Shown: piece after piece, positions 3,293 to 48,037 of the stretch
Numbering within the stretch: the stretch's first letter is position 1
Layout: each line of letters begins with the position of its first letter
Assembly: GCF_964204865.1 (NCBI RefSeq)
Contig: NC_135259.1
Coordinates: 2,294,001 to 2,358,000, forward strand
Direction of reading: 5' to 3'
Length of the DNA stretch: 64,000 bases
Source: Styela clava
Lineage: Eukaryota > Chordata > Ascidiacea > Stolidobranchia > Styelidae
Made by a program: the position numbers and the translations under genes
Notes under the pieces: generated by a model
Told to the model about the DNA's origin: nothing
The model's database searches: none
What the model saw: the letters and a program-made list of their open reading frames with translations, nothing else

Positions 3293-5239
3293 ATGATTGT
3301 TTTTATCATTCTAGCGTTTGTGGTCAAGAATTGTATCGGCGTTGCTGCAGCACGGTCGGAGGGTGTAGGAATGACTCTAAGTTAGTACATATTCCATTTG
3401 ATATAATTGTGTTAAACTTATGCATATAGGAGTGATAATCATTTAGAATTAACCTGTAAATCTGGAAAAATTTTCGCAAAGTGTTTCCCTCCATCCATAT
3501 ACTCCGCATCAAAAAACTATCCGAATCAGTTTAAACATTTTTTTTTTATTTCTATCGCATTTTATCAAGCTAGGTTCATTTTCCGAGTCTTTGATGTTAT
3601 TATTTACTACAGCAAATATTACTTTCAGATGATCCAAACGATCTTTCATCCTTCAGCGACACATTCACCTGTGAAAACGTTCAACACGGTAATTACGATT
3701 AATATTTTTTCAATTAAACTGATGTGAAGTCAATGTGAAACTGGCGCCTTCTGCGAGCCCAGAACTAATTTTGTTCCCATTGCCTTTGAGTCAATTTGAA
3801 ACAATATTACTTGAATGAGTATCAACCCAGTTTCAGTTCAAGTTGGATTATTGTGTGGTCTTTGGTACGCTGAGTCACCTAATTATCATGAATGTTGTAC
3901 TTTTGTGGATTTATAATCTTGCTGATTTTCAGTTGATCGATACTTACTGCTTGAGTATCTACCTGCGCCAGGTTTTATACTTGAGGTGTTTTTTACAATG
4001 GGATGGTTTTTCGCTGGAGGTAAGACTTTCATGTAAAGCACATTAAATTTAGTATAGATTTTAAACCTTCCTCGGATAAATATATTTCAGAACCTGAGCT
4101 GGTGACTGTAAACGAAAGTTTGAAATATATTGTTTCACCGGCGATAGACGGTTTTAAATCCAGACTTTGTTCGCTGCGAAATAGACTTAAAAATGCAACG
4201 GCTCATGGTAAGTAGCAAGCTTAACTATCTAATTCTAGCATACCATCTTTGAAATGTTTGTAGACATTCTTCCTTCATCCTAAATCAACTGCGACAATAA
4301 AAATGGCTGGTGTTGTAATTAGCAAAACACCCCCACACACCCGCATGCGTGAGCGTATTCACTTTAGATTGGCAAGCTGCATATTCTCAACACTCGAAGA
4401 AATTTAATTTATAAACCATTTCTTATTTTGTTCGTTACGCTAGATATTTTAGAAGCGTATAAGAGTCAAGAAAATCTAGAATCTCTAATACTAAATGGAT
4501 GGAAGGAGAACGATTATGACAGAATGAAACAATTACACTATAACCAAGGAGATTGTAAGTCCATAATAAGTGACTTTAATGCTGTATAAAGCAAATATTA
4601 GTTTGAAAAATTTACTCGATCTCACAAATATTACCCAATTTGGTCACTCTCACAACTCACATGATACCTCTTGCAGAAATGCTATTTTAATAACCCGATG
4701 AAAGTTAACTATAAACCAGAATAAAATTTTTGTTCAGATATTTTAATTTTTCTCGAATTTTTACGATTCTGTAACGTTTCCCTTTTACAGTATGGTTTTT
4801 GAGATATCCAAATGTGTTTGATCTTCTTGAAAGTGTTCGAAGGTTTTTCTGCACTTATCGTAGATGCAATGTGGGAGAGTGTGCAATTCCACCAATCCGT
4901 TTCACGTCAGTTGAGCAAGAAAATGCGATGTTAGAACTTTTCCATTTATGGGAATGGCACTTTGAAGATAAAGAATTGGATCTTAGCGAAGTATTTGTTC
5001 ATATGGTTGGTGAACCCCTTCTGAAAAAAGAGGGCATATCGGGAATAGATTTGACTAATTCGAAACTTTCTACGTATTTTGCTAATGTCCTTATTGCCAT
5101 AGACACGTTGTTAGGCTTGTTCACCAACTTAGAAGATAATTTAAACAGAGAAACGTATCTTTTTACACAATGGCATCTGACTCTTTGCAATTGCTGGGGA
5201 GGATATTCTGGAAGATCTTGCAACACTTGCCCTGCTTGA
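3293..5239 (+). CDS. Gene A, intact copy: secreted cysteine-rich family protein
   Basis: Six exons: 3293-3380, 3629-3688, 3933-4019, 4091-4207, 4444-4554 and 4791-5239, totalling 912 nt and 303 residues. All introns are GT-AG and phase 1. Residues 1-20 form a hydrophobic signal peptide. Exon 2 (residues 30-49) has S-D-T-F-T-C with C44. Exon 4 contains C105 in a C-S-L-R motif and an N-A-T glycosylation sequon at 113. The last exon opens with L-W-F and carries C-x4-C-x3-C (175, 180, 185). It ends with a laminin-EGF-like C-x-C-x8-C-x2-C (287-301). The mature protein has nine cysteines. This is the only A copy with exon 1 and a promoter. The exon 1 donor (GTTAGT at 3381) is the least certain border. 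GTGTAG a few codons earlier is also phase-compatible. Function is unknown, and secretion is inferred from the signal peptide. Confidence 0.78.
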
Positions 5240-5434
5240 AAACTGATATAGATCGGGTTGCGATTCTAATTGAAAATCTGTATCTGAGTTTGAATATTTT
5301 GTTGAATACTCGGTTGTCCTTACTTCTATTAAATGCTGACGGAACGAATTATAACTTGCAGATCTTGCTAATATTGAAAATAATCTATCGGTGAGATAAT
5401 GCTGTAATATTTCTATATTTTCATGTCTTGAAAG

Positions 5435-5440
5435 AATAAA
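5435..5440 (+). terminator. Polyadenylation signal of gene A
   Basis: AATAAA lies about 195 bases after the A stop codon, followed by a T-rich stretch. It is repeated in every unit, for example at 14848 in unit 2, so truncated A copies keep a 3' end signal. Confidence 0.5.
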
Positions 5441-6339
5441 ATTGTACGCATTTTTCAAAAGTGCATGCGTTGATAAATAAAATAAGAATGAGTTTCTGAA
5501 GGAAAATTTCCTACTTTGAGACTACAACTTCGTGGATTGGTCAAATTGGTCAAAAAGTTTTAAAAGATAACTCAGATTGTGTGAAAAAACTTTTCCTTGT
5601 TCTATATCACTGAATAAATCGAGATATTTATGAATGAGTGAAATGTAGTCCAACTAGGTGTGTCATTGTAATTAGATTCTAGCCTAGCTTGGAATTCGAA
5701 AAGTCATTGAAAACGACGGGAGATATTCTATCTAACTGAGTTTTCTACCAACAACAATTGTGAATATATTTTTTTTTCAAAGTAATTGTTACGACAATCA
5801 CGGGAAAGCTGTTTTCAAATCAAAACTAGGTCTTTTTATCAGCCTATCGTGAACGAGCTGTTTTTGCTTTACTTTGATTTTCCTATGCTACAAGGGTTCA
5901 GATGGAATATCTGGAATACGTGAAACCTAATTGCACGTGTTTAGTTCTTGTTTCAAATAAAAGTTATCAATTTACCTCGTGACCTGAAATAAATTTCCGG
6001 GTGGTTGTGCTCAGTGTATTTCCTGTTGTGGCTTTGTGTGGTTTCGTAAGATCACAGCCAAGTGGAATACCAATTGGGTCAAATTCTGCACTACAATCTT
6101 AACTATAGCCGTACAAGCGTCATCAAAACAATATGTATCAAAGACTCTATTCGTTACTCGATTTAAAATGAATTTACGCCCACGTTTGGATATCGTATAT
6201 TTTGTAATTTACCATTGCTTCATGTCGTTACATTTCATTTCAATGTATAGTTATAAAAAATGCAGGAGCTTTTTTTAAGGAATACGGCGTTTCAATATTT
6301 GGTTGGATGCAAGATTTACACAGATCCCTTTTTTCATTA

Positions 6340-6605
6340 CTTATCGATCTTGATCGGTAAGTATGTTGATACTTGAGGTATTTGTCTGTTTGTTTGTTTG
6401 TCTGTCTGTTAGATACACGCGATATCTCACGAAAGCGAGGTTGGATCTGCTTAAAATTTTGCATGTGCATTCATCATATCTCGGACCAGGAGCATATTGA
6501 TTTTGAATGAACTATATAATTAGCGAGTTATTAATTAATTAGTAATGGGACACGCGGTGTCGCTATTGAGTCAGAGCGGAGGAAACATGCCGCTAGATCG
6601 ATAAG
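6340..6605. repeat. Repeat-like block with 11-bp inverted ends and TGTT/TGTC microsatellite
   Basis: CTTATCGATCT at 6340-6350 is matched in inverse by AGATCGATAAG at 6595-6605. Between them are a TGTT/TGTC-rich run (about 6382-6411) and a stretch containing GATATCTCACGAAAGCGAG. The arrangement looks like an interspersed repeat, but no target duplication was found. Array copies are at 15753-16018, 25167-25432, 31938-32203 and 41351-41616. Confidence 0.35.
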
Positions 6606-7080
6606 TCGGCGGTCTCTATATCTCGTTTAATGATTTTTGATAAATTTCTGAAGTCTGTATCAATAAAGTAAATAATCATTATCGTTTTTTGTCTACGTTC
6701 TACGTTTTTTGAAGTGGAAAGTCAAATGCGACAAGAATCACGCCCTTCATACACGAATAACAGACTTGGATTATTTTTAGGTCTGTTGATTCTTTTCCCT
6801 CAGCAAGAGTAAGTACCATTGTGTCTGTTGAAACAAACTGATTCTTGATCCAATCGCATATTGGATTTCAGTAGTTTTTCACATTTTAGTTCTGTGATTG
6901 TATTACCAAAATCCATCTTAAACTGAATACAGAACAGCAATAAACTGGTATAATGTCAGGGATAAAAGTTTTCAAACGATCAGCATTAGAACTTTACATT
7001 TTGGTATCAAACTATTGCAAACTGTGAATACCTGTCTAACTCAAACTAAGCCAAACACTGGCGATAGGGCAGGTATTATT

Positions 7081-7284
7081 GGTTCCCTTACATTTGAACC
7101 CACGTACATTTGAACCCATGACAATTGCACCTGTATGCTATTGCACCTATGGATTTTTTTTTTGTTTCACGGATAGTTAAACTCATACTAACCCTAACCC
7201 ATGGGTTTTAGCATACGCATATAGATTGAACCCGTGGATATACACATGGGTTCAAATGTACGTGGGTTCAAATGTACAGTCACC
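7081..7284. mobile_element. Miniature inverted-repeat element, 204 bp, unit 1
   Basis: The element starts GGTTCCCTTACATTTGAACC and ends with the inverse of GGTGACTGTACATTTGAACC. It is flanked by perfect 9-bp direct repeats GGTATTATT (7072-7080 and 7285-7293). Each end carries the motif TACATTTGAACCCA twice. The interior contains CTAACCCTAACCC and a T-run, and there is no coding capacity. A 9-bp target duplication fits Mutator-like elements, but that class assignment is inference. Confidence 0.8.
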
Positions 7285-8188
7285 GGTATTATTACATATG
7301 ACTGCTTTCAGCTCAATGGTCAAAATTATTAAACGAATGCAAAGTGGGCAAACATGATAAATGAAACAACAGACAGTACGACAGTAATTTGATTCCACCA
7401 TGGTATCGCTTGTTTTGATGAAACATTTACAATTTGTGGTGTACGAGATGTGTCACAGGTTTGTATTTAAAAGATCAACGTCATCATGTATTGTGGTACC
7501 ATTTATGTGATTGAAGCTTTCAATTTCGATATTTTTCCCAGTCTGTTTATTAATCGAGATGTATGTTTGCCTTGTTGTCATAGCGTTCAATGACATTCAA
7601 ATCAAAATACGGTCACTGGATGAATTTTCATGTAATGACATCATTCAGATATCTATAATTTTTACTATCCGGATAACGGATATATCCGTATATTTCGAAT
7701 TTTAACCATCCGATTAACCGGAAAGATATTGTTGAGTTTTAGAAAATCCATTTCCTCAAGTTTTTTTTGATGAATTGATCAAAAATTACGACACATTTTT
7801 TGCGAATATATAAACATGCACTCTAAAGGCGTTCCACTGCAAAAACTATAAGCTACACCCGACCAAAATGCAACAGAATCAGCAATTCGTGGAACGCACC
7901 TCCCACAGTGTAGGCCAATACTTGATGCGTGAAAGCACAATGCACCAGATAAGAGATGCACCACCCTGCGTGTCGTCGATCGTGCAGTATTAGCGTTGTA
8001 TCCAGTACCAAATCAAAACACGCTTTCAATTGCCCCACAATATGCCCGAATCACAATGGCACAAACCACGACAGTAGAATATAGTTATCACCAAAACCGC
8101 CACCTCCATCTGCCCCGTCGTTATACCCACCCATTTAAAGCTTTTCAACTGTATTCGTTTATAGCCTTGCTTATATTTTCAACCTAAC

Positions 8189-8233
8189 TTAAAAGAATGG
8201 GCTCTTCTATTTTAAAAGAATGGGCTCTTCTAT
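8189..8233. repeat. Short direct duplication, 22 bp twice
   Basis: TTAAAAGAATGGGCTCTTCT plus AT occurs twice with a period of 23 bases. It is repeated in units 2, 4 and 5; the unit 3 equivalent lies in the gap. Confidence 0.7.
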
Positions 8234-10020
8234 TACATATTAATCACATTTGTGTTACATATTTTGTGATGTGAGAGTGAAGTTCACGATGGCTGAAATA
8301 TAGACAGAGAAGTGTGAATAAAAATTGTTATCACGTGATATGGGGTATGTCCGCCGTAATTTAACAAAAAATATCAAAATTACTAATGAGCATATACACC
8401 ATTCATGCAACTTTATTATTCGGTTAATCGTCACAATTATATTCGATATCAGAGAGCAAAATATCTCTCGGTTTACCGGTTATTCGTTAATCCAACCCCA
8501 GCCTCCTATTATGTATATGTGAACAATGTCTTTTATTGTTATGCATAAATCCATGACTGAACTTTTCTTCCTCCACCGGCACTTGAAACTTTCCATTATG
8601 TATTGCTTCACCTCAAATTGTTCTTTGACCAAAAAATAAATGTGATGGCTTATTTGGGGAATCAAATGTGACTACAACTATTTTGTTGATATTGTTTTTC
8701 CATTTTCTGAGTTTCTCATTATTCTCGATTCATTTTTAGTAGTGATATCTGAATATATATTGCGCACTGTTTCAATAGACTTTTGACTCTATTTCCTGTA
8801 TTCAACAGGGGTATTCAAAGTTTCTTTTAATATCCTCTATTCTTTTTAGAGTATTTAACATGTTTCAACATTTTATTTTTAGATGATGGCAACTTTCCAA
8901 CATTTTCAGCATTTTGAACTATTTGAGATATTTCTTTACTGATATTTATACTTTTTAGACTAGTTAGCTAGTTGTCTTTGTTTTTACTACTTACAATAAT
9001 TATATTTTGTTCTTTAATTTCTTCAAATTGTGTCATTAACTCTGTTGTTTCATTATTTGATGACAGCTCTTTATATCTAAATCTATTCCTATGCGATGTA
9101 ATTATCCAGTTCATTTCTTTGTCCATTTTTAGTTTAATATGTTATACATTTTAAGTTAAGTTATCAATAACTTAGGATACTACGTTCGAAATGACATGAG
9201 TTTAATGGCGCTACATAAGAGAATTGTTTTCGTGTGTATGTAGGCCCAAAGCGCATGGAAATATATTAACTCCAAGATCACAATTTTTAAGATGACGACT
9301 GTCGAAAATAATATAACACTGAACTGTAATATTGTTTCAAGCCAGTAAGCGGCACACCATCTTACTACAAGCGACGCACTAATGTTTGGAACCTCTGGTT
9401 TAGGCAATTAAGGCAAGGCATGCAGGCACGTTTCAGACATGCAGGCGTGTAGGGAGGTGAGAAAATTAAATGTCAGAGCTCTCGCATCTTGTAATTTATA
9501 TATGAGAAGACTGCGTAGAAAAACTCAAGTAATCAATTCGGTAACATTTGAAATTGATAACATTTACCATTTAAACCATTAATTTTAAACCCCTTTTCGA
9601 ACTCTTCATCATCAAACTTCACACATCTTCTGCGTAGAATATGCTTTATTCGTTTACCATTCCAGCATAACTGCAGAGAGTGAAAACTAAGTGCACATGA
9701 TTTGACTGATATTATTCGCCTTGGTATGGCTGGTAGTGTTGCCTGAACTGAGTTGCAACTATTTAAAAATTGATACAAAATTAATCGTCCTCTATTTAAT
9801 AGTGGGTGTACTTTGGTCAAACTCCTCTTGAAAAAGTAACAATTTTCTGTTAAACATGCGGTGCTTGTTAAAATCTGTCAGTTACAAACGCGGGGAAAAG
9901 ATGTTAGTCATTTTGTTTTGACGTGAATTCATTCTGTTCATGATTGCGTATTCAGGAAAGACGAGACGGAAAAACGTTGATAACAATTGTGCCCTTCCTT
10001 TTGAATGATTTGATTTAAGT

Positions 10021-10029
10021 TATAAAAAA
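10021..10029 (+). promoter_or_regulatory. TATA box of gene B, unit 1
   Basis: TATAAAAAA lies 55 bases upstream of the B start codon. It is inside the duplicated unit, so B keeps its core promoter in units 2 (19434), 4 (35619) and 5 (45032). The unit 3 equivalent lies in the assembly gap. Confidence 0.55.
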
Positions 10030-10075
10030 TCACAGCAGCAATAAAGCAGTCTGGGCAAACACTGTAACAAAGAAA

Positions 10076-13000
10076 ATGTCGCGTGCGAGACTTTTTTTGT
10101 TCAATTTACTCATCCTCTTTTTGATAGCAAAAAGTATAGCAAACGTTGAAGGTAAGTAGTGAATTGATCAGCATTAGATTATTTGAATTCATTACAAATT
10201 TGTCGTATTTGCAAGGTTGGTTCAAGTTGGGCAATCGTACGTGTAGTATACATGATGAATGAATGAGGAATGGTACCTGAATTGGCCGAAGAGATGAAAC
10301 ACAAAGTTTAATTTTTAAATGAATTCTACATTCTGAAATGCAATGGATTGTCTAATTTCGCATAATTTATATGCTACGTATGCGAATATTTTCATAGCTT
10401 TCTAGCAATATATTACCTAATTATTATTATCATTTTATCGCAATAAAAAAGCTATTCAGCACGGCCAATCCACATGCACAAACGTTTTTTTTTTATAGAA
10501 AGGCAAGAATATCAAGCGGAATTTGATAGGACCTTTACGTGTGACGACGTTGTTCGCAGTAAGCCATCTCTATATTACTCAAGTTATTCATATAATATAT
10601 ATTTTCTTCATACAACCAATAAAATACACACAGCGATGCATGGTTTATTTCCAGATCGCATATTGTCAAGGAAAACGCGTCTACAGTCAATTTACTGACA
10701 TACTGTATTTATTGACGATAGATAAAAAATAAAACTCCCATGAAATTTAAATCAAGTAGGCCTAGTTTTGTTTCATATTCCTAATTTCCATGTCATGGTG
10801 TTTTGATTATTTTTATCAGTATGGAAAGGCGAGGATTATGCTTCTACTAAACCTTCGGAAGAGTTTATAAAAGATTTTGAAATAAACTTTGGTGAAGCCT
10901 ATCGATATGGTACGATAATGTTTATTTTTGTTGTGTCCCACTATTTTTACCCTTTTCTGTTTATTTATACGGTGATAGAAGAAAAACGACAAAAAATTCA
11001 CTACAGATACGTAATTTTAAATAAACCAGTCCTGGACAATGAGGCATTCTACCTGATATATTTTTACACCAATTGTGTGTCCGTAGCGTAATGCTATGCG
11101 AAGTATAAATAAAGCTATACGTTAAGAATATTGTCCTGGTCTCTGTGCATTCAAGTGACAATGAGCATCTGCCCATCTATTACAGTTTATTGCTGATAGA
11201 TATAAAATCGACTCTTGTTAGGACGAACCTTGGGTAAAATTAACAATTTATTTTGAGAAGAAGAAATATATGATTTAAATAACTGTATACTAAGAATTTT
11301 ACGAACGGAATGTGGGTCGTTAAAAATCACTGTACTTGAAACGGGATTGAGTCACTGCTTATATAAAAGCATTTAAGTTCAACGGGAAAAATGATAAATG
11401 TTTTTCCTCGGCTATGGGGTTTTATATTAGCAAACAATTGACCACAAATTTGCAATATAGTTCTTAGATATATCTTATCTATACGCATGTCGAAACTAGA
11501 GAGTTTGCAAACGTCTGTAATCAATACGTAGATTAATCATGACTAACCCAGAGAATATGCCATAATTTTGTATATTTAGTATTATTAGGGAAATATACAT
11601 TTAACACCTTAATACATTTAATACAGGCGGCCCTGGACCCACCATAGCTACGTATGACGTCATGGAAATTGTGACTTTACCCACCATTAAACAATTTCTC
11701 GTGACTGCTTGCTCTTTACGGAAAAGAATTCTTAATGCAACCGCACATGGTACGTTCATAGCTGCGATCAATTTTTTACTGTCATCGCAGGGCAATGTTA
11801 ACATTATAACAAAAATTTGGAATACGAATATTTTGCATCAAAGATGATAGTTAAAATTTTCAGTTTTAATCGAAGGGAGTGAAATGAATCTGATAAAACT
11901 GTAATCATTTTCCTAATTTCTTAATAATTCAAACTTTCAGTATAAGATCATTATTTATTCCATCTTTAGACATTATGGAGAGTTATTTGACAATAAAAGA
12001 AATCAGGAAAGTCGTATATGGAGGTGGTTGGGGACCGAACACACATGGCTTGTTAGGTAATAGCAAGAAACCAGCGGAATATTGTGAGTGTAGAATTTTC
12101 AATTACCATAACACGAAATTTATGTAATTTAACTAAAATAGGTCATAATTGGGAGCCTATTTTTGTTTTTTGTTATATGCCGACTATTCTTGTATGATTA
12201 TTGGGTATTCGGGCACTTTTCCGTAATGCAAAAATGCTGCTATCACAAAAACAGAAAATGCGCTTTTTCATTCTTGAATCCCAAATTATTCATTTGTCAG
12301 TGCAAGGCCGACTATTGGCTTAATTGTCCAGTTGTGGATGGATAAATTCAGAAAATAAAGCCTGCTATTTAAGTTTTAAACTTTGGCATAGTTGAAAACA
12401 GCTTCCCAACAAGTTTGAAGGGTATCACATCAAGACAATTGTTTTTGTTTCACAGCAACCGCAATGCTTGAAAATTGAAAATTTAAATAATGACTCATTT
12501 GCTGCCCATATATGTACATTCCTATGCATTCATATGATATTATTCTCCTTTGAAAATATGATAAATTTCTTTTGGAAACAGTGTGGTATATGAGACAGCC
12601 AACAACAAACGATCTAATGCATATGCTACGCACGTTTTTCTGCATCTACCGCACTTGCAACGTTGGAATATGTAAAATTGGATCTGTGGAATTTTCGGAA
12701 GCACATTATAAAACAGCAAGAATTGAACTTCTGACAGCATGGCGTGATAAGATAAAAGCATTGGATGAAGATATTGCCGACGAAGTCGTTATGGTGAAAA
12801 TGTTGCAGCAAGCCATTGTTCTCGATGAAAAGTCCGAAGCAGACTTGTTGAAGGGAGAACTTCTTTCCTATTGGATCAACGGAATCTTGATGTTAGATGG
12901 TATAATCACAATTATGGTGGGTATAGAACAAAATCCAACGAAAGAAAATTTCATGAAAAGTATTTGGGACTCCACCATATGTGAGTGTTTAGATGGATAT

Positions 13001-13087
13001 GGTGGGAGAATGTGCAATGTCTGCCCAACGGAAAATATATTGCCACTTTATATTTTTAACAAATTTCAGCGACACATTCACCTGTGA
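10076..13087 (+). CDS. Gene B copy 1: secreted cysteine-rich family protein with extended C-terminus
   Basis: Six exons: 10076-10151, 10499-10558, 10820-10909, 11627-11749, 11970-12083 and 12582-13087, totalling 969 nt and 322 residues. All introns are GT-AG and phase 1. Residues 1-24 form a signal peptide with a long hydrophobic core. Conserved features are R-T-F-T-C with C40, A-C-S-L-R with C104, and an N-A-T sequon at 112. They continue with F-F-C-x4-C-x3-C (175, 180, 185) and the EGF-like C-x-C-x8-C-x2-C at 288-302. The reading frame runs past Phe316, where the ancestral copy in unit 5 stops, and adds six residues (Q-R-H-I-H-L) encoded by sequence from exon 2 of gene A. That extension was made by the tandem duplication. 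The family is not named and a molecular role cannot be assigned. Confidence 0.78.
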
Positions 13088-14652
13088 AAACGTTCAACAC
13101 GGTAATTACGATTAATATTTTTTCAATTAAACTGATGTGAAGTCAATGTGAAACTGGCGCCTTCTGCGAGCCCAGAACTAATTTTGTTCCCATTGCCTTT
13201 GAGTCAATTTGAAACAATATTACTTGAATGAGTATCAACCCAGTTTCAGTTCAAGTTGGATTATTGTGTGGTCTTTGGTACGCTGAGTCACCTAATTATC
13301 ATGAATGTTGTACTTTTGTGGATTTATAATCTTGCTGATTTTCAGTTGATCGATACTTACTGCTTGAGTATCTACCTGCGCCAGGTTTTATACTTGAGGT
13401 GTTTTTTACAATGGGATGGTTTTTCGCTGGAGGTAAGACTTTCATGTAAAGCACATTAAATTTAGTATAGATTTTAAACCTTCCTCGGATAAATATATTT
13501 CAGAACCTGAGCTGGTGACTGTAAACGAAAGTTTGAAATATATTGTTTCACCGGCGATAGACGGTTTTAAATCCAGACTTTGTTCGCTGCGAAATAGACT
13601 TAAAAATGCAACGGCTCATGGTAAGTAGCAAGCTTAACTATCTAATTCTAGCATACCATCTTTGAAATGTTTGTAGACATTCTTCCTTCATCCTAAATCA
13701 ACTGCGACAATAAAAATGGCTGGTGTTGTAATTAGCAAAACACCCCCACACACCCGCATGCGTGAGCGTATTCACTTTAGATTGGCAAGCTGCATATTCT
13801 CAACACTCGAAGAAATTTAATTTATAAACCATTTCTTATTTTGTTCGTTACGCTAGATATTTTAGAAGCGTATAAGAGTCAAGAAAATCTAGAATCTCTA
13901 ATACTAAATGGATGGAAGGAGAACGATTATGACAGAATGAAACAATTACACTATAACCAAGGAGATTGTAAGTCAATAATAAGTGACTTTAATGCTGTAT
14001 AAAGCAAATATTAGTTTGAAAAATTTACTCGATCTCACAAATATTACCCAATTTGGTCACTCTCACAACTCACATGATACCTCTTGCAGAAATGCTATTT
14101 TAATAACCCGATGAAAGTTAACTATAAACCAGAATAAAATTTTTGTTCAGATATTTTAATTTTTCTCGAATTTTTACGATTCTGTAACGTTTCCCTTTTA
14201 CAGTATGGTTTTTGAGATATCCAAATGTGTTTGATCTTCTTGAAAGTGTTCGAAGGTTTTTCTGCACTTATCGTAGATGCAATGTGGGAGAGTGTGCAAT
14301 TCCACCAATCCGTTTCACGTCAGTTGAGCAAGAAAATGCGATGTTAGAACTTTTCCATTTATGGGAATGGCACTTTGAAGATAAAGAATTGGATCTTAGC
14401 GAAGTATTTGTTCATATGGTTGGTGAACCCCATCTGAAAAAAGAGGGCATATCGGGAATAGATTTGACTAATTCGAAACTTTCTACGTATTTTGCTAATG
14501 TCCTTATTGCCATAGACACGTTGTTAGGCTTGTTCACCAACTTAGAAGATAATTTAAACAGAGAAACGTATCTTTTTACACAATGGCATCTGACTCTTTG
14601 CAATTGCTGGGGAGGATATTCTGGAAGATCTTGCAACACTTGCCCTGCTTGA
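13067..14652 (+). pseudogene. Gene A copy 2, 5'-truncated
   Basis: Keeps the last 35 nt of exon 2 (13067-13101) and exons 3-6 at 13346-13432, 13504-13620, 13857-13967 and 14204-14652, with splice sites intact. It has no promoter, no signal-peptide exon and no start of exon 2. Exons 3-6 remain open, with GGA (not a stop) in exon 5. One missense change, Leu to His, lies in exon 6 near 14431. The first in-frame Met is in exon 3 at 13411. It could be expressed only by read-through from B copy 1 or by trans-splicing, and would then lack a signal peptide. Confidence 0.8.
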
Positions 14653-16493: not shown

Positions 16494-16697
16494 GGTTCCC
16501 TTACATTTGAACCCACGTACATTTGAACCCATGACAATTGCACCTGTATGCTATTGCACCTATGGATTTTTTTTTTGTTTCACGGATAGTTAAACTCATA
16601 CTAACCCTAACCCATGGGTTTTAGCATACGCATATAGATTGAACCCGTGGATATACACATGGGTTCAAATGTACGTGGGTTCAAATGTACAGTCACC
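16494..16697. mobile_element. Miniature inverted-repeat element, unit 2 copy
   Basis: Array copy of the element at 7081-7284 with the same GGTATTATT flanks. It arrived by duplication of the unit, not by separate insertion. Confidence 0.8.
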
Positions 16698-22400: not shown

Positions 22401-22500
22401 TTTAGATGGATATGGTGGGAGAATGTGCAATGTCTGCCCAACGGAAAATATATTGCCACTTTATATTTTTAACAAATTTCAGCGACACATTCACCTGTGA
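19489..22500 (+). CDS. Gene B copy 2, complete, extended C-terminus
   Basis: Exons 19489-19564, 19912-19971, 20233-20322, 21040-21162, 21383-21496 and 21995-22500. The predicted 322-residue product shows no difference from copy 1 that I could see, including the six-residue C-terminal extension. Its own TATA box is at 19434. Confidence 0.77.
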
Positions 22501-25907: not shown

Positions 25908-26111
25908 GGTTCCCTTACATTTGAACCCACGTACATTTGAACCCATGACAATTGCACCTGTATGCTATTGCACCTATGGATTTTTTTTTTGTTTCACGGA
26001 TAGTTAAACTCATACTAACCCTAACCCATGGGTTTTAGCATACGCATATAGATTGAACCCGTGGATATACACATGGGTTCAAATGTACGTGGGTTCAAAT
26101 GTACAGTCACC
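25908..26111. mobile_element. Miniature inverted-repeat element, unit 3 copy
   Basis: Array copy with the same GGTATTATT flanks as in unit 1, duplicated with the unit. Confidence 0.8.
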
Positions 26112-26773: not shown

Positions 26774-26973
26774 NNNNNNNNNNNNNNNNNNNNNNNNNNN
26801 NNNNNNNNNNNNNNNNNNNNNNNNNNNNNNNNNNNNNNNNNNNNNNNNNNNNNNNNNNNNNNNNNNNNNNNNNNNNNNNNNNNNNNNNNNNNNNNNNNNN
26901 NNNNNNNNNNNNNNNNNNNNNNNNNNNNNNNNNNNNNNNNNNNNNNNNNNNNNNNNNNNNNNNNNNNNNNNNN
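26774..26973. other. Assembly gap (200 N)
   Basis: The run of Ns replaces about 2.85 kb of unit 3 (unit-1 positions 7947-10791), including the promoter and exons 1-2 of B copy 3. A round 200-N run is normally a gap of unknown size, so further units could be hidden here. Confidence 0.95.
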
Positions 26974-27001
26974 GTCATGGTGTTTTGATTATTTTTATCA
27001 G

Positions 27002-32678: not shown

Positions 32679-32882
32679 GGTTCCCTTACATTTGAACCCA
32701 CGTACATTTGAACCCATGACAATTGCACCTGTATGCTATTGCACCTATGGATTTTTTTTTTGTTTCACGGATAGTTAAACTCATACTAACCCTAACCCAT
32801 GGGTTTTAGCATACGCATATAGATTGAACCCGTGGATATACACATGGGTTCAAATGTACGTGGGTTCAAATGTACAGTCACC
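32679..32882. mobile_element. Miniature inverted-repeat element, unit 4 copy
   Basis: Array copy with the same GGTATTATT flanks as in unit 1, duplicated with the unit. Confidence 0.8.
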
Positions 32883-35673: not shown

Positions 35674-38600
35674 ATGTCGCGTGCGAGACTTTTTTTGTTC
35701 AATTTACTCATCCTCTTTTTGATAGCAAAAAGTATAGCAAACGTTGAAGGTAAGTAGTGAATTGATCAGCATTAGATTATTTGAATTCATTACAAATTTG
35801 TCGTATTTGCAAGGTTGGTTCAAGTTGGGCAATCGTACGTGTAGTATACATGATGAATGAATGAGGAATGGTACCTGAATTGGCCGAAGAGATGAAACAC
35901 AAAGTTTAATTTTTAAATGAATTCTACATTCTGAAATGCAATGGATTGTCTAATTTCGCATAATTTATATGCTACGTATGCGAATATTTTCATAGCTTTC
36001 TAGCAATATATTACCTAATTATTATTATCATTTTATCGCAATAAAAAAGCTATTCAGCACGGCCAATCCACATGCACAAACGTTTTTTTTTTATAGAAAG
36101 GCAAGAATATCAAGCGGAATTTGATAGGACCTTTACGTGTGACGACGTTGTTCGCAGTAAGCCATCTCTATATTACTCAAGTTATTCATATAATATATAT
36201 TTTCTTCATACAACCAATAAAATACACACAGCGATGCATGGTTTATTTCCAGATCGCATATTGTCAAGGAAAACGCGTCTACAGTCAATTTACTGACATA
36301 CTGTATTTATTGACGATAGATAAAAAATAAAACTCCCATGAAATTTAAATCAAGTAGGCCTAGTTTTGTTTCATATTCCTAATTTCCATGTCATGGTGTT
36401 TTGATTATTTTTATCAGTATGGAAAGGCGAGGATTATGCTTCTACTAAACCTTCGGAAGAGTTTATAAAAGATTTTGAAATAAACTTTGGTGAAGCCTAT
36501 CGATATGGTACGATAATGTTTATTTTTGTTGTGTCCCACTATTTTTACCCTTTTCTGTTTATTTATACGGTGATAGAAGAAAAACGACAAAAAATTCACT
36601 ACAGATACGTAATTTTAAATAAACCAGTCCTGGACAATGAGGCATTCTACCTGATATATTTTTACACCAATTGTGTGTCCGTAGCGTAATGCTATGCGAA
36701 GTATAAATAAAGCTATACGTTAAGAATATTGTCCTGGTCTCTGTGCATTCAAGTGACAATGAGCATCTGCCCATCTATTACAGTTTATTGCTGATAGATA
36801 TAAAATCGACTCTTGTTAGGACGAACCTTGGGTAAAATTAACAATTTATTTTGAGAAGAAGAAATATATGATTTAAATAACTGTATACTAAGAATTTTAC
36901 GAACGGAATGTGGGTCGTTAAAAATCACTGTACTTGAAACGGGATTGAGTCACTGCTTATATAAAAGCATTTAAGTTCAACGGGAAAAATGATAAATGTT
37001 TTTCCTCGGCTATGGGGTTTTATATTAGCAAACAATTGACCACAAATTTGCAATATAGTTCTTAGATATATCTTATCTATACGCATGTCGAAACTAGAGA
37101 GTTTGCAAACGTCTGTAATCAATACGTAGATTAATCATGACTAACCCAGAGAATATGCCATAATTTTGTATATTTAGTATTATTAGGGAAATATACATTT
37201 AACACCTTAATACATTTAATACAGGCGGCCCTGGACCCACCATAGCTACGTATGACGTCATGGAAATTGTGACTTTACCCACCATTAAACAATTTCTCGT
37301 GACTGCTTGCTCTTTACGGAAAAGAATTCTTAATGCAACCGCACATGGTACGTTCATAGCTGCGATCAATTTTTTACTGTCATCGCAGGGCAATGTTAAC
37401 ATTATAACAAAAATTTGGAATACGAATATTTTGCATCAAAGATGATAGTTAAAATTTTCAGTTTTAATCGAAGGGAGTGAAATGAATCTGATAAAACTGT
37501 AATCATTTTCCTAATTTCTTAATAATTCAAACTTTCAGTATAAGATCATTATTTATTCCATCTTTAGACATTATGGAGAGTTATTTGACAATAAAAGAAA
37601 TCAGGAAAGTCGTATATGGAGGTGGTTGGGGACCGAACACACATGGCTTGTTAGGTAATAGCAAGAAACCAGCGGAATATTGTGAGTGTAGAATTTTCAA
37701 TTACCATAACACGAAATTTATGTAATTTAACTAAAATAGGTCATAATTGGGAGCCTATTTTTGTTTTTTGTTATATGCCGACTATTCTTGTATGATTATT
37801 GGGTATTCGGGCACTTTTCCGTAATGCAAAAATGCTGCTATCACAAAAACAGAAAATGCGCTTTTTCATTCTTGAATCCCAAATTATTCATTTGTCAGTG
37901 CAAGGCCGACTATTGGCTTAATTGTCCAGTTGTGGATGGATAAATTCAGAAAATAAAGCCTGCTATTTAAGTTTTAAACTTTGGCATAGTTGAAAACAGC
38001 TTCCCAACAAGTTTGAAGGGTATCACATCAAGACAATTGTTTTTGTTTCACAGCAACCGCAATGCTTGAAAATTGAAAATTTAAATAATGACTCATTTGC
38101 TGCCCATATATGTACATTCCTATGCATTCATATGATATTATTCTCCTTTGAAAATATGATAAATTTCTTTTGGAAACAGTGTGGTATATGAGACAGCCAA
38201 CAACAAACGATCTAATGCATATGCTACGCACGTTTTTCTGCATCTACCGCACTTGCAACGTTGGAATATGTAAAATTGGATCTGTGGAATTTTCGGAAGC
38301 ACATTATAAAACAGCAAGAATTGAACTTCTGACAGCATGGCGTGATAAGATAAAAGCATTGGATGAAGATATTGCCGACGAAGTCGTTATGGTGAAAATG
38401 TTGCAGCAAGCCATTGTTCTCGATGAAAAGTCCGAAGCAGACTTGTTGAAGGGAGAACTTCTTTCCTATTGGATCAACGGAATCTTGATGTTAGATGGTA
38501 TAATCACAATTATGGTGGGTATAGAACAAAATCCAACGAAAGAAAATTTCATGAAAAGTATTTGGGACTCCACCATATGTGAGTGTTTAGATGGATATGG

Positions 38601-38685
38601 TGGGAGAATGTGCAATGTCTGCCCAACGGAAAATATATTGCCACTTTATATTTTTAACAAATTTCAGCGACACATTCACCTGTGA
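35674..38685 (+). CDS. Gene B copy 4, complete, extended C-terminus
   Basis: Exons 35674-35749, 36097-36156, 36418-36507, 37225-37347, 37568-37681 and 38180-38685. The predicted product is 322 residues, with no difference from copy 1 that I could see. TATA box at 35619. Confidence 0.77.
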
Positions 38686-40250
38686 AAACGTTCAACACGG
38701 TAATTACGATTAATATTTTTTCAATTAAACTGATGTGAAGTCAATGTGAAACTGGCGCCTTCTGCGAGCCCAGAACTAATTTTGTTCCCATTGCCTTTGA
38801 GTCAATTTGAAACAATATTACTTGAATGAGTATCAACCCAGTTTCAGTTCAAGTTGGATTATTGTGTGGTCTTTGGTACGCTGAGTCACCTAATTATCAT
38901 GAATGTTGTACTTTTGTGGATTTATAATCTTGCTGATTTTCAGTTGATCGATACTTACTGCTTGAGTATCTACCTGCGCCAGGTTTTATACTTGAGGTGT
39001 TTTTTACAATGGGATGGTTTTTCGCTGGAGGTAAGACTTTCATGTAAAGCACATTAAATTTAGTATAGATTTTAAACCTTCCTCGGATAAATATATTTCA
39101 GAACCTGAGCTGGAGACTGTAAACGAAAGTTTGAAATATATTGTTTCACCGGCGATAGACGGTTTTAAATCCAGACTTTGTTCGCTGCGAAATAGACTTA
39201 AAAATGCAACGGCTCATGGTAAGTAGCAAGCTTAACTATCTAATTCTAGCATACCATCTTTGAAATGTTTGTAGACATTCTTCCTTCATCCTAAATCAAC
39301 TGCGACAATAAAAATGGCTGGTGTTGTAATTAGCAAAACACCCCCACACACCCGCATGCGTGAGCGTATTCACTTTAGATTGGCAAGCTGCATATTCTCA
39401 ACACTCGAAGAAATTTAATTTATAAACCATTTCTTATTTTGTTCGTTACGCTAGATATTTTAGAAGCGTATAAGAGTCAAGAAAATCTAGAATCTCTAAT
39501 ACTAAATGGATGGAAGGAGAACGATTATGACAGAATGAAACAATTACACTATAACCAATGAGATTGTAAGTCAATAATAAGTGACTTTAATGCTGTATAA
39601 AGCAAATATTAGTTTGAAAAATTTACTCGATCTCACAAATATTACCCAATTTGGTCACTCTCACAACTCACATGATACCTCTTGCAGAAATGCTATTTTA
39701 ATAACCCGATGAAAGTTAACTATAAACCAGAATAAAATTTTTGTTCAGATATTTTAATTTTTCTCGAATTTTTACGATTCTGTAACGTTTCCCTTTTACA
39801 GTATGGTTTTTGAGATATCCAAATGTGTTTGATCTTCTTGAAAGTGTTCGAAGGTTTTTCTGCACTTATCGTAGATGCAATGTGGGAGAGTGTGCAATTC
39901 CACCAATCCGTTTCACGTCAGTTGAGCAAGAAAATGCGATGTTAGAACTTTTCCATTTATGGGAATGGCACTTTGAAGATAAAGAATTGGATCTTAGCGA
40001 AGTATTTGTTCATATGGTTGGTGAACCCCTTCTGAAAAAAGAGGGCATATCGGGAATAGATTTGACTAATTCGAAACTTTCTACGTATTTTGCTAATGTC
40101 CTTATTGCCATAGACACGTTGTTAGGCTTGTTCACCAACTTAGAAGATAATTTAAACAGAGAAACGTATCTTTTTACACAATGGCATCTGACTCTTTGCA
40201 ATTGCTGGGGAGGATATTCTGGAAGATCTTGCAACACTTGCCCTGCTTGA
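38665..40250 (+). pseudogene. Gene A copy 5, 5'-truncated with nonsense codon
   Basis: Remnant exon 2 at 38665-38699 and exons 38944-39030, 39102-39218, 39455-39565 and 39802-40250. TGA replaces GGA at 39559-39561. It lacks promoter and exon 1. Confidence 0.85.
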
Positions 40251-42091
40251 AAACTGATATAGATCGGGTTGCGATTCTAATTGAAAATCTGTATCTGAGT
40301 TTGAATATTTTGTTGAATACTCGGTTGTCCTTACTTCTATTAAATGCTGACGGAACGAATTATAACTTGCAGATCTTGCTAATATTGAAAATAATCTATC
40401 GGTGAGATAATGCTGTAATATTTCTATATTTTCATGTCTTGAAAGAATAAAATTGTACGCATTTTTCAAAAGTGCATGCGTTGATAAATAAAATAAGAAT
40501 GAGTTTCTGAAGGAAAATTTCCTACTTTGAGACTACAACTTCGTGGATTGGTCAAATTGGTCAAAAAGTTTTAAAAGATAACTCAGATTGTGTGAAAAAA
40601 CTTTTCCTTGTTCTATATCACTGAATAAATCGAGATATTTATGAATGAGTGAAATGTAGTCCAACTAGGTGTGTCATTGTAATTAGATTCTAGCCTAGCT
40701 TGGAATTCGAAAAGTCATTGAAAACGACGGGAGATATTCTATCTAACTGAGTTTTCTACCAACAACAATTGTGAATATATTTTTTTTTCAAAGTAATTGT
40801 TACGACAATCACGGGAAAGCTGTTTTCAAATCAAAACTAGGTCTTTTTATCAGCCTATCGTGAACGAGCTGTTTTTGCTTTACTTTGATTTTCCTATGCT
40901 ACAAGGGTTCAGATGGAATATCTGGAATACGTGAAACCTAATTGCACGTGTTTAGTTCTTGTTTCAAATAAAAGTTATCAATTTACCTCGTGACCTGAAA
41001 TAAATTTCCGGGTGGTTGTGCTCAGTGTATTTCCTGTTGTGGCTTTGTGTGGGTTCGTAAGATCACAGCCAAGTGGAATACCAATTGGGTCAAATTCTGC
41101 ACTACAATCTTAACTATAGCCGTACAAGCGTCATCAAAACAATATGTATCAAAGACTCTATTCGTTACTCGATTTAAAATGAATTTACGCCCACGTTTGG
41201 ATATCGTATATTTTGTAATTTACCATTGCTTCATGTCGTTACATTTCATTTCAATGTATAGTTATAAAAAATGCAGGAGCTTTTTTTAAGGAATACGGCG
41301 TTTCAATATTTGGTTGGATGCAAGATTTACACAGATCCCTTTTTTCATTACTTATCGATCTTGATCGGTAAGTATGTTGATACTTGAGGTATTTGTCTGT
41401 TTGTTTGTTTGTCTGTCTGTTAGATACACGCGATATCTCACGAAAGCGAGGTTGGATCTGCTTAAAATTTTGCATGTGCATTCATCATATCTCGGACCAG
41501 GAGCATATTGATTTTGAATGAACTATATAATTAGCGAGTTATTAATTAATTAGTAATGGGACACGCGGTGTCGCTATTGAGTCAGAGCGGAGGAAACATG
41601 CCGCTAGATCGATAAGTCGGCGGTCTCTATATCTCGTTTAATGATTTTTGATAAATTTCTGAAGTCTGTATCAATAAAGTAAATAATCATTATCGTTTTT
41701 TGTCTACGTTCTACGTTTTTTGAAGTGGAAAGTCAAATGCGACAAGAATCACGCCCTTCATACACGAATAACAGACTTGGATTATTTTTAGGTCTGTTGA
41801 TTCTTTTCCCTCAGCAAGAGTAAGTACCATTGTGTCTGTTGAAACAAACTGATTCTTGATCCAATCGCATATTGGATTTCAGTAGTTTTTCACATTTTAG
41901 TTCTGTGATTGTATTACCAAAATCCATCTTAAACTGAATACAGAACAGCAATAAACTGGTATAATGTCAGGGATAAAAGTTTTCAAACGATCAGCATTAG
42001 AACTTTACATTTTGGTATCAAACTATTGCAAACTGTGAATACCTGTCTAACTCAAACTAAGCCAAACACTGGCGATAGGGCAGGTATTATT

Positions 42092-42295
42092 GGTTCCCTT
42101 ACATTTGAACCCACGTACATTTGAACCCATGACAATTGCACCTGTATGCTATTGCACCTATGGATTTTTTTTTTGTTTCACGGATAGTTAAACTCATACT
42201 AACCCTAACCCATGGGTTTTAGCATACGCATATAGATTGAACCCGTGGATATACACATGGGTTCAAATGTACGTGGGTTCAAATGTACAGTCACC
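42092..42295. mobile_element. Miniature inverted-repeat element, unit 5 copy
   Basis: Array copy with the same GGTATTATT flanks as in unit 1, duplicated with the unit. Confidence 0.8.
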
Positions 42296-45086
42296 GGTAT
42301 TATTACATATGACTGCTTTCAGCTCAATGGTCAAAATTATTAAACGAATGCAAAGTGGGCAAACATGATAAATGAAACAACAGACAGTACGACAGTAATT
42401 TGATTCCACCATGGTATCGCTTGTTTTGATGAAACATTTACAATTTGTGGTGTACGAGATGTGTCACAGGTTTGTATTTAAAAGATCAACGTCATCATGT
42501 ATTGTGGTACCATTTATGTGATTGAAGCTTTCAATTTCGATATTTTTCCCAGTCTGTTTATTAATCGAGATGTATGTTTGCCTTGTTGTCATAGCGTTCA
42601 ATGACATTCAAATCAAAATACGGTCACTGGATGAATTTTCATGTAATGACATCATTCAGATATCTATAATTTTTACTATCCGGATAACGGATATATCCGT
42701 ATATTTCGAATTTTAACCATCCGATTAACCGGAAAGATATTGTTGAGTTTTAGAAAATCCATTTCCTCAAGTTTTTTTTGATGTATTGATCAAAAATTAC
42801 GAAACATTTTTTGCGAATATATAAACATGCACTCTAAAGGCGTTCCACTGCAAAAACTATAAGCTACACCCGACCAAAATGCAACAGAATCAGCAATTCG
42901 TGGATCGCACCTCCCACAGTGTAGGCCAATACTTGATGCGTGAAAGCACAATGCACCAGATAAGAGATGCACCACCCTGCGTGTCGTCGATCGTGCAGTA
43001 TTAGCGTTGTATCCAGTACCAAATCAAAACACGCTTTCAATTGCCCCACAATATGCCCGAATCACAATGGCACAAACCACGACAGTAGAATATAGTTATC
43101 ACCAAAACCGCCACCTCCATCTGCCCCGTCGTTATACCCACCCATTTAAAGCTTTTCAACTGTATTCGTTTATAGCCTTGCTTATATTTTCAACCTAACT
43201 TAAAAGAATGGGCTCTTCTATTTTAAAAGAATGGGCTCTTCTATTACATATTAATCACATTTGTGTTACATATTTTGTGATGTGAGAGTGAAGTTCACGA
43301 TGGCTGAAATATAGACAGAGAAGTGTGAATAAAAATTGTTATCACGTGATATGGGGTATGTCCGCCGTAATTTAACAAAAAATATCAAAATTACTAATGA
43401 GCATATACACCATTCATGCAACTTTATTATTCGGTTAATCGTCACAATTATATTCGATATCAGAGAGCAAAATATCTCTCGGTTTACCGGTTATTCGTTA
43501 ATCCAACCCCAGCCTCCTATTATGTATATGTGAACAATGTCTTTTATTGTTATGCATAAATCCATGACTGAACTTTTCTTCCTCCACCGGCACTTGAAAC
43601 TTTCCATTATGTATTGCTTCACCTCAAATTGTTCTTTGACCAAAAAATAAATGTGATGGCTTATTTGGGGAATCAAATGTGACTACAACTATTTTGTTGA
43701 TATTGTTTTTCCATTTTCTGAGTTTCTCATTATTCTCGATTCATTTTTAGTAGTGATATCTGAATATATATTGCGCACTGTTTCAATAGACTTTTGACTC
43801 TATTTCCTGTATTCAACAGGGGTATTCAAAGTTTCTTTTAATATCCTCTATTCTTTTTAGAGTATTTAACATGTTTCAACATTTTATTTTTAGATGATGG
43901 CAACTTTCCAACATTTTCAGCATTTTGAACTATTTGAGATATTTCTTTACTGATATTTATACTTTTTAGACTAGTTAGCTAGTTGTCTTTGTTTTTACTA
44001 CTTACAATAATTATATTTTGTTCTTTAATTTCTTCAAATTGTGTCATTAACTCTGTTGTTTCATTATTTGATGACAGCTCTTTATATCTAAATCTATTCC
44101 TATGCGATGTAATTATCCAGTTCATTTCTTTGTCCATTTTTAGTTTAATATGTTATACATTTTAAGTTAAGTTATCAATAACTTAGGATACTACGTTCGA
44201 AATGACATGAGTTTAATGGCGCTACATAAGAGAATTGTTTTCGTGTGTATGTAGGCCCAAAGCGCATGGAAATATATTAACTCCAAGATCACAATTTTTA
44301 AGATGACGACTGTCGAAAATAATATAACACTGAACTGTAATATTGTTTCAAGCCAGTAAGCGGCACACCATCTTACTACAAGCGACGCACTAATGTTTGG
44401 AACCTCTGGTTTAGGCAATTAAGGCAAGGCATGCAGGCACGTTTCAGACATGCAGGCGTGTAGGGAGGTGAGAAAATTAAATGTCAGAGCTCTCGCATCT
44501 TGTAATTTATATATGAGAAGACTGCGTAGAAAAACTCAAGTAATCAATTCGGTAACATTTGAAATTGATAACATTTACCATTTAAACCATTAATTTTAAA
44601 CCCCTTTTCGAACTCTTCATCATCAAACTTCACACATCTTCTGCGTAGAATATGCTTTATTCGTTTACCATTCCAGCATAACTGCAGAGAGTGAAAACTA
44701 AGTGCACATGATTTGACTGATATTATTCGCCTTGGTATGGCTGGTAGTGTTGCCTGAACTGAGTTGCAACTATTTAAAAATTGATACAAAATTAATCGTC
44801 CTCTATTTAATAGTGGGTGTACTTTGGTCAAACTCCTCTTGAAAAAGTAACAATTTTCTGTTAAACATGCGGTGCTTGTTAAAATCTGTCAGTTACAAAC
44901 GCGGGGAAAAGATGTTAGTCATTTTGTTTTGACGTGAATTCATTCTGTTCATGATTGCGTATTCAGGAAAGACGAGACGGAAAAACGTTGATAACAATTG
45001 TGCCCTTCCTTTTGAATGATTTGATTTAAGTTATAAAAAATCACAGCAGCAATAAAGCAGTCTGGGCAAACACTGTAACAAAGAAA

Positions 45087-48037
45087 ATGTCGCGTGCGAG
45101 ACTTTTTTTGTTCAATTTACTCATCCTCTTTTTGATAGCAAAAAGTATAGCAAACGTTGAAGGTAAGTAGTGAATTGATCAGCATTAGATTATTTGAATT
45201 CATTACAAATTTGTCGTATTTGCAAGGTTGGTTCAAGTTGGGCAATCGTACGTGTAGTATACATGATGAATGAATGAGGAATGGTACCTGAATTGGCCGA
45301 AGAGATGAAACACAAAGTTTAATTTTTAAATGAATTCTACATTCTGAAATGCAATGGATTGTCTAATTTCGCATAATTTATATGCTACGTATGCGAATAT
45401 TTTCATAGCTTTCTAGCAATATATTACCTAATTATTATTATCATTTTATCGCAATAAAAAAGCTATTCAGCACGGCCAATCCACATGCACAAACGTTTTT
45501 TTTTTATAGAAAGGCAAGAATATCAAGCGGAATTTGATAGGACCTTTACGTGTGACGACGTTGTTCGCAGTAAGCCATCTCTATATTACTCAAGTTATTC
45601 ATATAATATATATTTTCTTCATACAACCAATAAAATACACACAGCGATGCATGGTTTATTTCCAGATCGCATATTGTCAAGGAAAACGCGTCTACAGTCA
45701 ATTTACTGACATACTGTATTTATTGACGATAGATAAAAAATAAAACTCCCATGAAATTTAAATCAAGTAGGCCTAGTTTTGTTTCATATTCCTAATTTCC
45801 ATGTCATGGTGTTTTGATTATTTTTATCAGTATGGAAAGGCGAGGATTATGCTTCTACTAAACCTTCGGAAGAGTTTATAAAAGATTTTGAAATAAACTT
45901 TGGTGAAGCCTATCGATATGGTACGATAATGTTTATTTTTGTTGTGTCCCACTATTTTTACCCTTTTCTGTTTATTTATACGGTGATAGAAGAAAAACGA
46001 CAAAAAATTCACTACAGATACGTAATTTTAAATAAACCAATTGTGTGTCCGTAGCGTAATGCTATGCGAAGTATAAATAAAGCTATACGTTAAGAATATT
46101 GTCCTGGTCTCTGTGCATTCAAGTGACAATGAGCATCTGCCCATCTATTACAGTTTATTGCTGATAGATATAAAATCGACTCTTGTTAGGACGAACCTTG
46201 GGTAAAATTAACAATTTATTTTGAGAAGAAGAAATATATGATTTAAATAACTGTATACTAAGAATTTTACGAACGGAATGTGGGTCGTTAAAAATCACTG
46301 TACTTGAAACGGGATTGAGTCACTGCTTATATAAAAGCATTTAAGTTCAACGGGAAAAATGATAAATGTTTTTCCTCGGCTATGGGGTTTTATATTAGCA
46401 AACAATTGACCACAAATTTGCAATATAGTTCTTAGATATATCTTATCTATACGCATGTCGAAACTAGAGAGTTTGCAAACGTCTGTAATCAATACGTAGA
46501 TTAATCATGACTAACCCAGAGAATATGCCATAATTTTGTATATTTAGTATTATTAGGGAAATATACATTTAACACCTTAATACATTTAATACAGGCGGCC
46601 CTGGACCCACCATAGCTACGTATGACGTCATGGAAATTGTGACTTTACCCACCATTAAACAATTTCTCGTGACTGCTTGCTCTTTACGGAAAAGAATTCT
46701 TAATGCAACCGCACATGGTACGTTCATAGCTGCGATCAATTTTTTACTGTCATCGCAGGGCAATGTTAACATTATAACAAAAATTTGGAATACGAATATT
46801 TTGCATCAAAGATGATAGTTAAAATTTTCAGTTTTAATCGAAGGGAGTGAAATGAATCTGATAAAACTGTAATCATTTTCCTAATTTCTTAATAATTCAA
46901 ACTTTCAGTATAAGATCATTATTTATTCCATCTTTAGACATTATGGAGAGTTATTTGACAATAAAAGAAATCAGGAAAGTCGTATATGGAGGTGGTTGGG
47001 GACCGAACACACATGGCTTGTTAGGTAATAGCAAGAAACCAGCGGAATATTGTGAGTGTAGAATTTTCAATTACCATAACACGAAATTTATGTAATTTAA
47101 CTAAAATAGGTCATAATTGGGAGCCTATTTTTGTTTTTTGTTATATGCCGACTATTCTTGTATGATTATTGGGTATTCGGGCACTTTTCCGTAATGCAAA
47201 AATGCTGCTATCACAAAAACAGAAAATGCGCTTTTTCATTCTTGAATCCCAAATTATTCATTTGTCAGTGCAAGGCCGACTATTGGCTTAATTGTCCAGT
47301 TGTGGATGGATAAATTCAGAAAATAAAGCCTGCTATTTAAGTTTTAAACTTTGGCATAGTTGAAAACAGCTTCCCAACAAGTTTGAAGGGTATCACATCA
47401 AGACAATTGTTTTTGTTTCACAGCAACCGCAATGCTTGAATATTGAAAATTTAAATAATGACTCATTTGCTGCCCATATATGTACATTCCTATGCATTCA
47501 TATGATATTATTCTCCTTTGAAAATATGATAAATTTCTTTTGGAAACAGTGTGGTATATGAGACAGCCAACAACAAACGATCTAATGCATATGCTACGCA
47601 CGTTTTTCTGCATCTACCGCACTTGCAACGTTGGAATATGTAAAATTGGATCTGCGGAATTTTCGGAAGCACATTATAAAACAGCAAGAATTGAACTTCT
47701 GACAGCATGGCGTGATAAGATAAAAGCATTGGATGAAGATATTGCCGACGAAGTCGTTATGGTGAAAATGTTGCAGCAAGCCATTGTTCTCGATGAAAAG
47801 TCCGAAGCAGACTTGTTGAAGGGAGAACTTCTTTCCTATTGGATCAACGGAATCTTGATGTTAGATGGTATAATCACAATTATGGTGGGTATAGAACAAA
47901 ATCCAACGAAAGAAAATTTCATGAAAAGTATTTGGGACTCCACCATATGTGAGTGTTTAGATGGATATGGTGGGAGAATGTGCAATGTCTGCCCAACGGA
48001 AAATATATTGCCACTTTATATTTTTAACAAATTTTAG
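45087..48037 (+). CDS. Gene B copy 5, complete, ancestral C-terminus
   Basis: Exons 45087-45162, 45510-45569, 45831-45920, 46595-46717, 46938-47051 and 47550-48037, totalling 951 nt and 316 residues. It ends in N-K-F followed by TAG, which is probably the original end of gene B because unique flank follows it. One missense change (Val to Ala) lies in the last exon near 47655. Intron 3 is 43 bp shorter than in the other copies. No AATAAA is evident close behind the stop. Confidence 0.78.

Follow-up and report, generated by a model that had tools for sequence, protein, structure and literature searches.

How did a gene of secreted type come to stand in a row of almost identical copies, next to beheaded copies of its neighbour? 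This question is raised by a 64-kb stretch of Styela clava DNA (contig NC_135259.1, positions 2,294,001 to 2,358,000, forward strand; called the window below), in which a unit of about 9.4 kb holding part of a gene A and the whole of a related gene B is repeated. The best explanation, and in our judgement a very probable one, is a recent head-to-tail tandem amplification in this tunicate. The repeat structure was found with a word-offset count and a self-BLAST of the window, the units were aligned to each other for their differences, and the models of A, B and their relatives C and D were built from the sequence only, by splicing by eye at GT-AG sites. Probes were searched against the 376.6-Mb genome assembly.

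The repeated unit and its junction

Both the word-offset count and the self-BLAST were dominated by a repeat distance of 9,413 bp in head-to-tail orientation, which defines the units U1 to U5 (Table 1). The unit begins within exon 2 of A (3629-3688), and its right edge is immediately before the stop codon of B (48035-48037). A preliminary description of this DNA had bounded the array at 3654..48034, which is correct within the 2-bp ambiguity of the junction (our alignment starts the first unit at 3652), and its statement that the unit ends at the last sense codon of B agrees with the edge at 48034. The complete units U1, U2, U4 and U5 differ by 4-9 substitutions and 0-2 insertion or deletion (indel) events per 9.4 kb in all six pairwise alignments, and with a similarity of about 99.9% over such a length chance would be no issue. 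Two hallmarks of recent tandem segmental amplification are found here: the copies follow head to tail at constant spacing with one common junction (4/4 junctions), and the near-identity extends to non-coding DNA.

At the junction the origin of the array can still be read. Native A has the sequence ...CATCC TT CAGCGAC..., native B ...AACAAAT TT TAG... and the junction ...AACAAAT TT CAGCGAC..., which reads as a simple joining with a microhomology of 2 bp (TT). The first junction recurs at 22478, 29249 and 38663, with the 71 bases around each being identical in all four cases and with two junctions on either side of an assembly gap in unit 3. These repeated readings bear on a possible assembly artefact, in which the true locus would hold one unit or two alleles differing in length, and haplotypes or the repeats of one contig would have been strung together. 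Such an error would be in line with a gap within the array, with one error-rich contig end and with unit-to-unit differences that are within the allelic range. A one-unit locus, however, would contain no B-to-A junction at all, whereas this junction is read four times without any N and on both sides of the gap, and with its two alleles such a locus could not account for four units with distinct variants, making an artefact of this kind very unlikely.

Tandem amplification, the preferred reading, probably proceeded in two steps. To judge from the junction, a break in exon 2 of A would first have been joined to a break at the stop codon of B through the 2-bp microhomology, giving the first 9.4-kb duplicate. 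Unequal exchange between the long identical units, to which the identical junctions and the variant pattern point, would then have raised their number to at least four and kept them alike. The net effect would be more B transcript and protein, with A staying single as an intact gene.

Two probes of the unit matched at full or near-full length only here in the genome. A 534-bp probe of the last exon of B gave five matches, all at the array. When the best 40 of 68 first-look candidates were scored for a 2,401-bp probe from the middle of the unit (8300-10700 in unit 1), it was found in full length at exactly four places, each of them within the window; a further 37 listed matches cover short stretches only, with 72-85% identity, and we read them as interspersed repeats. 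Each unit also contains an element about 220 bp long (7080-7299 in the first unit) whose inverted ends measure 32 bp and which looks like a miniature inverted-repeat transposable element, and an inverted copy of it with about 93% identity lies in the single-copy part (51833-51615).

The gap and the number of units

The gap in unit 3 is the single run of N in the 124 kb covered by the window and its flanks, and its 200 N are probably of placeholder size. As assembled, about 2.85 kb of unit 3 are absent. Its left piece is the same as unit 4 without any difference over 4,296 bp. Against unit 4, the right piece has ten one-base indels but not a single substitution, and all ten lie in the 1.44 kb adjoining the gap (26974-28413); an alternative alignment scores the same differences as six substitutions and six indels. 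Each of the ten indels shortens or lengthens a single-base run, two of them lie in exon 3 of B3 where their frame effects cancel, and the rest of the right piece is indel-free. Together they look like differences of the sequencing-error type at a badly polished contig end.

Unit 3 may thus be no separate unit and may represent the overlapping ends of two contigs. The array would then have four units, the contigs flanking the gap overlapping by about 6.5 kb and having been scaffolded unmerged, with the head of the right contig poorly polished. This would be a correction of the count within the tandem amplification and involve the same process. It is favoured by the differences just described and by the self-BLAST, in which 20205-26773 and 26974-33544 differ by indels only and show no mismatch, and the missing middle of unit 3 was seen on no other contig among the best 40 of the 68 candidates for the 2,401-bp probe. 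The scaffolder, however, did set a gap there, and true neighbours can match exactly: since U1, U2 and U4 also show no difference over the 5.2 kb holding B, the identity over 4.3 kb is no proof of a contig overlap. We consider an overlap a serious possibility, with the balance tilting slightly against it.

For the amplification itself, at least four units are supported because U1, U2, U4 and U5 each have their own variants and hence are four distinct sequences; four units (with overlapping contigs), five or more would all be compatible with the sequence. Of the five units claimed in the preliminary description, four complete and distinct ones stand, and the remaining one, unit 3, is split by the gap, about 2.85 kb short and nearly identical to unit 4, so that the sequence does not confirm a count of five. 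In the same way its four broken copies of A are present as assembled and would become three if the contigs around the gap overlap. The locus illustrates how a scaffold gap can conceal a true copy number.

Table 1: Positions of the units, genes and landmarks discussed here (coordinates of the window).
Feature	Position	Strand	Basis
Unit 1 (9,413 bp; unit part of intact A, and B1)	3652..13064	+	self-BLAST, alignment
Unit 2 (9,413 bp; truncated A2, and B2)	13065..22477	+	self-BLAST, alignment
Unit 3 as assembled (4,296 bp + 200 N + 2,275 bp)	22478..29248	+	N-run scan, alignments, genome probe
Unit 4 (9,414 bp; truncated A4, and B4)	29249..38662	+	self-BLAST, alignment
Unit 5 (9,372 bp; B intron 3 shortened by a deletion of 43 bp; truncated A5, and B5)	38663..48034	+	self-BLAST, alignment
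First junction (end of B fused to exon 2 of A through a shared TT; B gains six codons and a TGA)	13059..13087	+	sequence reading
Assembly gap, 200 N, inside unit 3	26774..26973	.	N-run scan
Gene A, sole intact copy (303 aa from six exons; every intron in phase 1; exon 2 contains the unit start)	3293..5239	+	GT-AG model built by eye
Truncated A copy 2 (frame open from the middle of exon 2 on; exon 6 with Leu-to-His)	13065..14652	+	sequence comparison
In-frame TGA in exon 5 of truncated A3 (same codon at 30145-30147 in A4 and 39559-39561 in A5)	23374..23376	+	
Gene B copy 1 (six exons with only phase-1 introns between them; C-terminal extra QRHIHL, then TGA)	10076..13087	+	GT-AG model built by eye
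Gene B copy 5 (one Val-to-Ala change; closes with its native TAG, 48035-48037)	45087..48037	+	model and comparison
Gene C, relative in single copy on the downstream side (six exons separated by phase-1 introns)	53408..56985	+	GT-AG model built by eye
Gene D, distant relative in single copy on the upstream side (four exons separated by phase-1 introns)	296..1952	-	GT-AG model built by eye

The genes and the fate of their copies

A1 is the sole full copy of A. As had been proposed from the position of the unit start, which the junction in exon 2 bears out, the added copies of A have lost everything upstream of mid exon 2 and with it promoter, exon 1 and signal peptide. A2 is the only truncated copy with a frame open throughout. 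In addition, A3, A4 and A5 have two changes in common, Val-to-Glu in exon 4 and a TGA that stops the frame in exon 5. The stop is present in three of the four truncated copies as assembled, or in two of three should units 3 and 4 be the same unit. This common stop suggests that units 3-5 derive from one ancestral unit already split from the type of units 1 and 2.

The copies of B had a different fate. Each unit carries B preceded by its own 4.8 kb of upstream DNA, and B1, B2, B4 and B5 have all exons. The earlier claim that B has all exons where sequenced is valid for these four, and B3 is without exons 1-2 owing to the gap. The B proteins of U1, U2 and U4 are identical and that of U5 differs by a single residue; the deletion in intron 3 of B5 has ACCA at both ends. 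This fits A copies that are free to decay and B copies that would be either young or constrained. A gain in dosage is plausible, and a higher output of B would be expected because there are more complete gene copies with their own 5' region.

The joining also changed the 3' end of B, which had not been mentioned in the preliminary description. In B1 to B4 the stop codon TAG is replaced, resulting in six added residues (QRHIHL) followed by TGA (4/4), and the native downstream DNA is swapped for truncated A; B5 alone keeps its native stop and the original downstream DNA. A possible poly(A) signal, ATTAAA, is located at 13126, about 40 bp past the new stop of B1. Neither AATAAA nor ATTAAA was found at 48034-48700 after B5 or at 56985-57500 after C.

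As the new TGA of B lies inside exon 2 of truncated A (A'), the two genes abut on the same strand, a feature of Ciona-type operons. It could be imagined that transcripts of B run into A', and that B exons are spliced to A' exons to give secreted hybrids with the signal peptide and front of B and the body of A, or that spliced-leader cutting yields two messages including a headless A'. Every intron of A and B is of phase 1, and in a test of the reading frame only, run with A2, A3 and A5, 19 of 20 joins were open to the end when sets of B exons (from 1 up to 1-5) were linked to sets of A2 exons (from 3-6 down to 6). The direct abutment, too, is as described for genes in Ciona operons, which hold about a fifth of the Ciona genes (PMC2760879). 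With A3 and with A5, however, only 5 of the 20 joins each were open, solely those going straight to exon 6, and A4 has the same TGA codon. Moreover, hybrids would require skipping of the last exon of B, an operon-type A' product would be without signal peptide, and the possible poly(A) signal shortly after the new B stop speaks against read-through. Overall we regard read-through as very unlikely. If it were true, an instant B-A' transcription unit would have arisen at each junction, and the shared stop in A3 to A5 would mark the loss of its products.

For the amplified gene itself the relatives give some orientation. A, B and C are mutually 30-40% identical over most of their length and D is more distant with about 20-22% (protein comparison). 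All four open with a stretch that by eye resembles a hydrophobic signal peptide, and their last exons contain seven invariant cysteines among the conserved positions. They appear to form a cysteine-rich, secreted-type family with phase-1 introns and without a Pfam match above cut-off. The last exon of B, used as protein query, gave 12 matches in the genome, all in the cluster (13/13 candidates scored), and a further relative lies 1.97 kb past the window (L009:1972-2385); weak tblastn family matches to L006-L010 (E 2.5-8.4) were disregarded. In this genome the multiplied family was found in a single cluster.

Pfam gave nothing above cut-off for the last-exon pieces of A-D, an exon-1 frame of C and two other frames, the nearest being a Laminin-type EGF domain (PF00053) in the last exon of B with 15.6 bits against a cut-off of 21, for which the pieces of A, C and D gave no match. 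No match was obtained for the four last-exon pieces in NCBIfam or for the last exon of B in a PDB sequence search, no relative of B was found on viral contigs, and none of six peptide strings was found in print. The structure predicted for the last exon of B is poor, with a mean predicted local distance difference test (pLDDT) of 53.3 and a predicted template modelling score (pTM) of 0.40 (4 sequences). Rfam matched neither in the window nor in 11 further loci, and no tRNA was found in the window. A search for COX1 gave no match, and one of the genome for the GFP family gave none there or in its control genomes.

Age, possible exchange and comparison with known systems

Two observations on the variants give a hint of exchange between units. 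At sites 4548 and 7773 all four combinations are found among U1, U2, U4 and U5 in the alignment, as would be expected of exchange. In addition, U1, U2 and U4 vary at 8 sites, every one of them in the first 45% of the unit and none in the 5.2 kb holding B. Under a uniform rate this skew would have a probability of 0.0017, the test having been selected with the data already in view.

Another array is present a short way upstream (L006:9434 to L008:6162; genome C13 2273434-2290162) with units of about 4.9 kb that are 90.0-96.6% identical (matches over 600 bp). It centres on a small unrelated gene with a cysteine-rich and secreted-looking frame (ALNCFCPNGGKNC...), and a Pfam scan of three frames gave no match. 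The region has been amplified before. Because the upstream array is that much more diverged, the array in the window is young by local standards and much younger than its neighbour. The few differences per 9.4 kb, which had been taken to mean a very recent event or strong homogenisation, are borne out by both the unit alignments and this comparison.

We conclude that the array is a real, young and ordinary tandem amplification of a known type. Some points weigh against the reading as a whole: the gap in unit 3 allows for different unit counts; the gene models are predictions from splice sites read by eye; B1 to B4 are without their native downstream DNA and their transcripts might be impaired instead of adding to the dosage; the counts of coding changes are too small for a selection test; and the four-combination pattern could also be obtained by repeated mutation. 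With the tandem amplification as the preferred explanation, the array offers a snapshot of a young amplification with a complete passenger gene, a beheaded and decaying neighbour and an original junction that is still legible. Should the number of copies differ from animal to animal, dosage selection could be tested directly at this locus, as could the remaking of 3' ends after tandem duplication.

Other features were seen in the window and the genome. A fold-back at 62326-63956 has two inverted arms of about 570 bp that are 87% identical, A-/T-rich stretches and an inner inverted repeat (62933-63318). On the minus strand, frames at 59428-59715 and 60808-61002 have weak matches to an OTU cysteine protease and a retroelement integrase core, which with 17.6 bits against 23.3 and 26.1 bits against 32.6 both stay below cut-off, and are probably transposon remains. 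At 50610-50893 a 142-bp tandem repeat is present in two copies with 97.9% identity. Four large contigs (C1, C8, C10 and C14) begin with DNA rich in the telomere repeat CCCTAA/TTAGGG, eight of the contigs examined measure 22-33 Mb, and a satellite, TTTTTGACGGTTTTTCACTGTTTTTAAGCGTTTTAGCAGGGTTATTGG or its reverse, opens several small contigs and two large-contig ends (L012-L015, L018, L020, L025, L026, L028-L030; first 80 bases, by look).

The host itself is marked as a tunicate by a pair of cellulose synthase and GH6 frames. Contig C9 contains a cellulose synthase frame (L031:4732-5553; PF03552 with 28.3 bits, cut-off 24.7, together with PF13632/PF13641) and, 1.8 kb downstream on the same strand, a GH6 frame (L031:7389-7670; PF01341 with 42.4 bits, cut-off 27), and the two would form one gene. 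Tunicate CesA holds both domains, and no cellulose synthase gene has been found in other animals (PMC7464555). The schistosome egg antigen kappa-5, a lead raised by the genome size, a GC content near 35% and symmetrical exons, was dropped on this pair; no kappa-5 sequence was compared.

Three known systems are close enough for a comparison. With the Ciona-type operons (PMC2760879) the locus shares genes on the same strand that abut without intergenic DNA, here the end of B and truncated A, but the downstream gene is truncated, and a polycistronic transcript or a spliced leader would be hypothetical here. In the Avr1a/Avr3a arrays of Phytophthora sojae (PMC2661136) the copy number varies between strains with an effect on the phenotype, whereas the present array is known from one assembly, its host is an animal and a neighbouring gene is truncated in each added unit. 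The duplicates of the tunicate TNF superfamily (PMC12843592) resemble it in that tunicate genes coding for secreted or surface proteins have often, and independently, been duplicated in tandem; they belong to another family and are separate, diverged genes, in contrast to the array described here, which consists of near-identical units with one junction.

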